A stretch of 64,000 bases of DNA from Crocinitomicaceae bacterium (GTDB taxonomy: Bacteria; Bacteroidota; Bacteroidia; Flavobacteriales_G; Salibacteraceae), in assembly GCA_002713215.1 (NCBI GenBank), contig PAVO01000019.1:558001-622000 (forward strand), read 5' to 3'. Below are positions 21,011-21,961 of this stretch, in pieces. The translations under genes were made by a program, and so were the position numbers. The number at the start of each line of letters is the position of its first letter. Position 1 is the first letter of the stretch. The notes beneath the pieces were generated by a model. The model saw only the letters and a list, made by a program, of their open reading frames with translations. It ran no database searches and was not told the DNA's origin.

Positions 21011-21961
21011 TTAGTCATTCAACCACAAATCATGCTCTGCCTCAATAATCCTTAATTCGATTTTTTCGGCTTCTTTTAGGATGGCTTCCTCCGATTTTTT
21101 GTATTCATCAATTCGTAGGTCCTTAACGTTTGATTCTTTTACGATTTGTCCATAGAAACATCGGTAGAAGAAAAGATCGTCAATGGATTTAATCTTTTCC
21201 GGTAAAACAACGCCTTCCGGTTTTTCGTAAGCCAAATAAACCCGGGTTTCAGGGTAATACACCCAAAATAGTTTTTCTTTTTTTCCAGTTGTTTTATCCT
21301 TTAGGATGGGACAAATACCAATGATTCGGGTTTCAGAAAGCTTTCGAGCCTTATCGTAAAAAGTTTCTTCTTTAATTTCATACTCCACCACTTGCTTGTT
21401 GTTGAGGTCTAGGTAGGCAAAAGTTGCTAAATCCACTTTTTTTCTAAATTCATCATTGTCGGTTGTGTACAACTGGATGGCTCCATTTAACCCCAATTCA
21501 AACAACACCATAAACAAATGATCCTGGTTAAACAAGGCTGGGTTTTCTGCAGCAGGAATATTCCTCCAGATTCTTTTCGACCACAAAATATCATCTTGCT
21601 TAAAATCGTAATATTCAATGAAGCCACCCTCTCCTTTCTTTAAAGAATAAACTTCGGAACTGCTGTTAGTGGGTATTAATTGGTTATAGTTGAACGGAGT
21701 CTGGTACTCCCTTTTTATTTTGACCTTCCCGTTTTTGTCCCAAATGGTCCAGGTGCCTGTTCGGCAATTATTTTCAAAAGATCCACTAGCCTTTTTTTGC
21801 CCGTTGGCATAGTAGGAAGTGTAAAGGCCATCGAATCGTTGGTTCGCGGTTTCGTATTCGTATTTCAGTTTGCCAATTTCTGCTGATCGCTTTTCAATTC
21901 CGGTAAAAGCAACCATTAACAATAGGGCCAATGCAAGGGAAGGTGTTTTTAAAACGCTCAT
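21011..21961 (-). CDS. GldN-like protein with N-terminal MORN-type repeat
   Basis: A 316-residue exported protein with a hydrophobic signal at residues 1-20. Residues about 43-88 read GLYTSYYANGQKKASGSFEN then RTGTWTIWDKNGKVK, a YwqK/MORN-2 type repeat pair. From about 110 to the end it follows GldN/PorN, a periplasmic ring component of the type IX secretion and gliding apparatus: DDILWSKRIWRNI, then TRIIGICPILKD, KLFWVYYPETRVYL, SIDDLFFYRCFYGQIVKESN and a final EAEHDLW. In GldN proper the corresponding phrases are 'WSKRIWRviDlRek' and 'EvRIIGICPv'. It stands alone, not in a gldKLMN cluster, so it is a paralogue, possibly of an accessory or modified secretion ring. The family match is from memory but is strong across several motifs. 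Confidence 0.78.
   Translation of the reverse strand: MSVLKTPSLALALLLMVAFTGIEKRSAEIGKLKYEYETANQRFDGLYTSYYANGQKKASGSFENNCRTGTWTIWDKNGKVKIKREYQTPFNYNQLIPTNSSSEVYSLKKGEGGFIEYYDFKQDDILWSKRIWRNIPAAENPALFNQDHLFMVLFELGLNGAIQLYTTDNDEFRKKVDLATFAYLDLNNKQVVEYEIKEETFYDKARKLSETRIIGICPILKDKTTGKKEKLFWVYYPETRVYLAYEKPEGVVLPEKIKSIDDLFFYRCFYGQIVKESNVKDLRIDEYKKSEEAILKEAEKIELRIIEAEHDLWLND

Follow-up and report, generated by a model that had tools for sequence, protein, structure and literature searches.

A MORN_2–GldN fusion family in Bacteroidia and its GldK-like partner, a possible accessory module of the T9SS

GldN and PorN are subunits of the hub or ring of the T9SS, and structures in which they occur are available as PDB entries 7pvh, 9mzu, 9ots and 9myj. 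The hub formed by the K and N subunits was solved only recently (2025). In a structural study, the FGE core of PorK is described as holding PorN in the solved ring, and an element called InsH as the bridging element of PorK–PorK self-association (PMC12421860). Another paper found the cysteine of an RGCF motif disulfide-bonded to the outer-membrane carriers SprF/PorG (PMC12635249). A second GldN-type protein within one genome is also on record, since GldO of Flavobacterium johnsoniae is described in PMC10202324 as paralogous to GldN and as belonging to the GldKN complex.

The DNA that was analysed here, called the window in the following, is a stretch of 64,000 nucleotides from a Crocinitomicaceae bacterium (contig PAVO01000019.1). 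It encodes a protein, P0001, which is like GldN/PorN in domain profile and fold and, as judged by alignment, keeps the PorK-facing positions, but which adds an N-terminal MORN_2 domain, is encoded outside gldKLMN, lacks a near-invariant segment and belongs to a separate clade. As the second GldN-type protein of one genome it resembles GldO, from which it differs by a location far from the cluster, by the MORN domain and by a clade of its own. The predicted MORN_2 hairpins are shared with MORN_2/YwqK-type proteins, the difference being the fusion to GldN. In the open-access literature, no account of a MORN–GldN fusion or of a GldN-like/GldK-like side module was found among the matches listed. 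What is new here is a stripped GldK-like gene that lies directly upstream of the MORN–GldN gene and overlaps it, together with a protein in which the GldK-like, MORN and GldN parts form a single chain. The extra GldN-type protein hints at an unrecognised side module of the secretion-and-gliding machine.

The MORN–GldN gene and its genome

Table 1 Features of the MORN–GldN gene in the window
Feature	Position	Strand	Details and basis
MORN–GldN fusion gene P0001	21011..21961	(-)	316 aa, ATG start
Hydrophobic stretch at the N-terminus (residues 1-20), a probable Sec signal peptide	21902..21961	(-)	sequence; inferred
MORN_2 domain, residues 23-96, seven consecutive beta strands	21674..21895	(-)	Pfam MORN_2, AF2 strands, Foldseek
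Linker, residues 97-114	21620..21673	(-)	AF2: mostly coil, least confident block after the N-terminus
GldN domain, residues 115-314; W127, R206, KESN 275-278 and W313 kept	21020..21619	(-)	profiles, alignment, fold
Site of the missing canonical GldN segment, about residues 137-145	21527..21553	(-)	alignment

A preliminary description of this gene, made from the sequence, had assigned its larger C-terminal part to a GldN-type domain, and this assignment stands. P0001 matches both Pfam PF19841 (GldN; residues 121–313, E 3.1e-41, 142 bits where 23 are required) and NCBIfam TIGR03523 (GldN; 93 bits, cut-off 85.9), all four matches in a sequence search of the PDB are PorN/GldN chains, and a profile–profile comparison with canonical GldN gives E 9e-46. 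The motifs that had been quoted (WSKRIWRNI, RIIGICPI, LFWVYYPETR, KESN, EHDLW and others) are all present in the translation. An AlphaFold2 (AF2) model, based on an alignment with 19 family members, has a mean pLDDT of 90.1 and a pTM of 0.86, and in this model the seven strands at 23–96 are followed by a GldN part that ends in a long C-terminal helix (291–314). The top five matches of the model in a Foldseek comparison with the PDB are PorN structures (E 8.6e-11 to 9.0e-8, TM 0.58–0.63 by target length), after which MORN proteins follow (SET7/9 and others, E 8e-3 or weaker).

For the N-terminal part, Pfam finds MORN_2 in two stretches (E 1.7e-6; 28.0 bits, slightly below the cut-off of 29.6). 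The MORN-2 unit that had been proposed is present, but the seven strands amount to about two units instead of one. The preceding hydrophobic segment is probably a Sec signal peptide, as judged from its sequence, and the protein is presumably periplasmic. A pattern scan of the N-terminus did not find a lipobox, and AF2 places a helix of low confidence at residues 7–17.

After the first long strand, canonical GldN carries a segment of the form K-x-N...Y-x-P, in which K, N and P are present in 33 of 33 rows and Y in 31 of 33, these rows being the 38 other GldN rows of the tree described below minus five divergent GldN-like ones. The segment is absent from P0001, and among the 18 MORN-fused rows the N, Y and P columns are gapped throughout and the K column in 17. 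By alignment, the PorK-facing positions of PorN have equivalents in P0001: W47 corresponds to W127, the turning loop (156–162) contains R206, and W313 falls in the last part of the C-terminal helix. For this mapping the residues named in PMC12421860 were matched to the alignment, which showed that the numbering of the paper and that of the chain differ by 21. Within the 18 family rows the first position is W in 8, the second R in 13 and the third W in 14. P0001 also keeps KESN, which adjoins the loop cross-linked to PorM; this motif has been lost in the f47 group, to which several MORN–GldN members belong.

The genome from which the window was taken (G000) has one canonical GldN (PF19841, E 2.2e-69), encoded inside an ordinary porP-gldKLMN cluster (L072:4789-9596) on the same contig, about 47 kb from P0001, in agreement with the earlier statement that the gene stands alone outside gldKLMN. 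The two proteins are 43% identical over 124 residues. Since the genome also has this ordinary cluster with a canonical GldN, P0001 is a divergent GldN paralogue outside gldKLMN. No conserved neighbourhood was found around the window's own copy, where the neighbour families in common look like housekeeping types, and stand-alone MORN_2-like matches are numerous in this genome.

Distribution and phylogeny of the family

A sample of the order contained a protein matched over both halves in 6 of 42 genomes (G000, G004, G006, G019, G023 and G025), and a sample of the class had MORN–GldN in 12 of 395, the window's genome included. Thirteen genomes of the class sample matched at E <= 1e-38, of which G069 was left out, as its match starts at position 117 and does not comprise the MORN part. 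A pattern scan yielded 38 relatives, 12 of them full-length; eight of these had already been counted and four were new (L120-L123). The named MORN–GldN records are MAGs of Bacteroidia, Bacteroidetes, Flavobacteriales and Chitinophagales, as well as two entries titled 'uncultured bacterium'. In a sample of the phylum that was searched at E <= 1e-46, no MORN–GldN was found among 395 genomes except the window's own. Altogether 21 distinct loci were found in Bacteroidia, so that relatives do carry the fusion. The suspicion of a misjoined gene, raised in the preliminary description, is ruled out by the identical architecture at these 21 loci.

When a maximum-likelihood tree was calculated from the GldN columns only, with the MORN columns removed, the 18 MORN-fused rows formed one clade (100/100), apart from the 38 other GldN rows. 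Left out of this tree were L121 (the same protein as L120), the interrupted copy of G019, and G381, which was found later through the search with the GldK-like family. Closeness to GldN of the kind expected for a GldO-type protein was not seen, the MORN-fused rows being excluded from the clade that unites the 38 other GldN rows, among which GldO of F. johnsoniae is not included. The MORN-fused branches are long and the family is fast-evolving. Because the 18 fused rows form one clade, one MORN_2–GldN fusion event appears to be the simplest reading of the origin of the family.

Canonical GldK is present in all 11 MORN–GldN genomes that were queried, and complete porP-gldKLMN clusters are present in all seven that were inspected. 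Canonical GldN was not found in G292 and G315, two further genomes that are 60% complete.

The MORN–GldN gene of G019 (L076:2802-3752) is broken by a TAA stop. On two MAG contigs (L120:1-2050 and L121:1-1900) the first ~2 kb, including MORN–GldN, are identical, after which the sequences are ~5% different; this pattern reflects either a recent exchange or an effect of assembly or binning. From these contigs, the only close pair, no dN/dS ratio was obtained; the gene is identical in both and the neighbouring genes differ.

Proteins in which the two domains occur in the reverse order were also encountered. A secreted-looking protein of 569 aa from G017 (L184) has a GldN match of 47 bits followed by a MORN_2 match of 30.8 bits, both above cut-off. 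In the window's genome, a secreted-looking protein of 488 aa (L180:4732-6198, C46) has a marginal GldN match (E 0.005, and still marginal in a profile–profile comparison, E 1.6e-4, probability 50) followed by MORN_2 repeats. It is resembled by a 496-aa protein of G025 (L187), and the Pfam GldN match is marginal or absent in these two weaker cases. Like P0001 these proteins have both domains, but with MORN_2 at the C-terminus and a partial GldN part, and they represent a separate association. It thus appears that fusion between GldN and MORN_2 happened on more than one occasion.

Other architectures with GldN-family matches outside gldKLMN are found in L181, L182, L185 and L186 (412–416 aa) and in L190, L191 and L192 (189–205 aa), and some non-cluster GldN-family proteins have a lipoprotein-like start. 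GldN domains occur in more architectures than that of the gldKLMN cluster, and since GldN-like domains are present in such non-cluster proteins, a GldN domain by itself is no proof of T9SS function.

The GldK-like partner

Comparison of the neighbours of 16 loci gave, as the sole widely common family, a protein of ~280 aa (K-like in the following) that is encoded directly upstream of MORN–GldN in seven of them. An eighth K-like gene lies upstream at L122, which brings the number to 8 of the 21 loci. The upstream neighbour at L123 is unrelated to K-like, and at L120 and L121 the MORN–GldN gene is too close to the contig edge to judge the presence of a partner. In all eight pairs, the stop of the K-like gene and the start of the MORN–GldN gene overlap by 4 or 1 nt, and overlap of this kind is a usual sign of translational coupling. 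One genome (G381) has a single ORF of 579 aa with the order K-like, MORN, GldN, in which Pfam detects FGE and GldN; its MORN part was recognised from the family profile alignment and by eye. Searching the class sample with a K-like profile gave 8 of 395 genomes, G381 being one, and all of them are among the 12 that have MORN–GldN.

The nearest relative of K-like is GldK. An FGE-sulfatase domain (PF03781) scores above cut-off in four of the four proteins scanned, the four matches in a sequence search of the PDB at E <= 0.01 are all PorK/GldK, and in genomes without a K-like copy of their own the best match to K-like as a rule falls in canonical GldK. The FGE core has been kept, including the GldK-type PPVLKRK stretch. 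In contrast to GldK/PorK, the ~280-aa K-like proteins are devoid of a lipobox (pattern found in 0 of 8, against 9 of 9 GldK), of the RGCF loop (0 of 8, against 7 of 9 GldK) and, in an alignment of all eight with canonical GldK, of any insertion where PorK has InsH. The AF2 model of K-like is poor (pLDDT 61), with a weak fold match to PorK (E 6e-4, TM 0.19). Unlike the seven others of the nine, the canonical GldK proteins of G019 and G023 (L117 and L118) do not have RGCF.

A K-like partner was not found in the window's genome, where weak matches were limited to canonical GldK and to another FGE protein of ~498 aa, which may be GldJ-like. Nor was a K-like gene found in 8 further MORN–GldN genomes that were searched, and since it is missing from these and from the window's genome, MORN–GldN does not depend on being paired. 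When scored with a canonical GldN profile, P0001 reaches 133.5 bits and six of the eight paired members 36–61 bits. Orphan members are mostly above paired ones, the exceptions being G058 (paired, 153.9), G116 (paired, 114.9) and G023 (orphan, 4.8).

Possible role and alternative explanations

The explanation that we prefer, and to which we give an even chance, is that a periplasmic MORN–GldN and the stripped K-like protein form a K–N module that is soluble, does not polymerise, and attaches to the hub or track of the T9SS/gliding machine, where it acts as an adaptor, cap or regulator. From the domains, the fold, the single clade, the pairing, the single-chain fusion and the missing parts, as given by sequence and prediction, we infer the periplasmic location, the K–N binding, the docking on the T9SS and the adaptor role. 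The family would go back to a single joining of MORN_2 with GldN, and in a considerable share of its members MORN–GldN and K-like would be made as a 1:1 pair, either co-translated or as one chain. The partners would then associate through the FGE groove to a K–N heterodimer that is soluble in the periplasm. Such a pair would retain the K–N docking architecture of the T9SS/gliding hub, with a K side that would have lost its lipid anchor as well as the insertion that serves self-association and the cysteine by which the hub is tied to outer-membrane carriers. Without InsH, ring formation in the known manner would not be open to it. An extra binding surface may be provided by the MORN sheet, which is carried by GldN on its N-terminal arm, and the module may dock on the cell's own K/N ring or track, for example by sitting at an end of it or by binding to a K or M subunit. 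In the window's genome, with K-like absent, MORN–GldN would dock on canonical GldK.

The T9SS hub or track is the likeliest workplace, because canonical K is present in 11 of 11 genomes, full clusters are present in the seven that were inspected, and the K-facing residues are kept in P0001. The preliminary description had considered an alternative or accessory ring subunit. This idea gains from the overlapping K-like gene at eight loci and the single-chain fusion, but an accessory module that does not polymerise is more likely than an alternative ring of the regular kind, because K-like has neither the ring-building parts nor those tying it to the outer membrane, the GldN part misses its near-invariant segment, and the window's genome has no K-like gene. 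Most likely, the function would be that of an adaptor, cap or regulator and not that of a second full ring. More specifically, the minimal K–N module of Bacteroidia might cap the T9SS ring or gliding track at its end, set its length or act on it as a cargo adaptor, while the orphans would insert on canonical GldK, a proposal that we put forward as tentative. The sparse distribution and fast evolution of the family, the deletion of canonical GldN segments and the variable retention of W127 and W313 count against the preferred explanation, as do the genomes in which K-like is missing, the GldN-like domains of other non-cluster proteins, the poor K-like model with its weak match to PorK, and the restriction of the single-chain fusion to one genome. 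A natural K–N pair of this kind, which in one case occurs as one polypeptide, might serve as cap or adaptor, and with its docking core and without polymerising or anchoring parts it represents a ready-made minimal construct for structural work.

The strongest rival explanation, in itself rather doubtful, is a periplasmic complex that is independent of the T9SS, for which GldK-like and GldN folds would have been duplicated and repurposed, with MORN_2, as a heterodimer off the secretion machine. It owes this position to the most derived paired members, in which much of the GldN signature is gone, and to the GldN-like domains in non-cluster proteins. Thus, several members reach only 36–61 bits on the canonical profile, the f47 group is without KESN, the K-like protein has lost anchor, InsH and RGCF loop and the GldN part its segment, and MORN–GldN loci, like the GldN-like proteins of other architectures, are found away from the T9SS clusters. 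However, a complete separation from the T9SS is difficult to reconcile with P0001, which keeps most canonical GldN motifs (about 133 bits) and the K–N docking residues, and with the canonical GldK in each of the 11 genomes queried.

That the gene is a redundant, decaying GldN copy, either a GldO-like backup or a relic, in which the MORN fusion has no special role, we consider improbable. The family is sparse, fast-evolving and often orphan, the copy of G019 is interrupted by a stop, and there is a precedent in GldO of F. johnsoniae, a GldN paralogue that was reportedly found to be partly redundant in a 2010 study in J Bacteriol. Decay is nevertheless hardly expected for a protein such as P0001, which is intact and folds at pLDDT 90, or for an architecture that has been kept across many genera, and strict pairing with K-like in overlapping genes, as well as the single-chain fusion, also speaks against it. 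Still less probable is a role of MORN as a membrane or lipid tether that replaces the lipid anchor of GldK in an alternative ring at the membrane, an idea close to that of the preliminary description, since PorK-type rings of K-like are unlikely because InsH is missing and lipid binding by MORN_2 is putative here, even though K-like without a lipobox makes another anchor for the pair conceivable and the MORN repeats of eukaryotes are commonly said to bind lipids.

Duplications were also observed within canonical clusters. In the window's genome, a second gldM that is 61% identical to the first follows directly after gldN, without a second gldN (L072:9819-11462, G000:C19, outside the window). 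G011 has a second gldM and then a second gldN, which is broken up into two frames that overlap (L193:8772-11296), and in G116 three tandem gldN genes follow gldM (L199:8617-11614).
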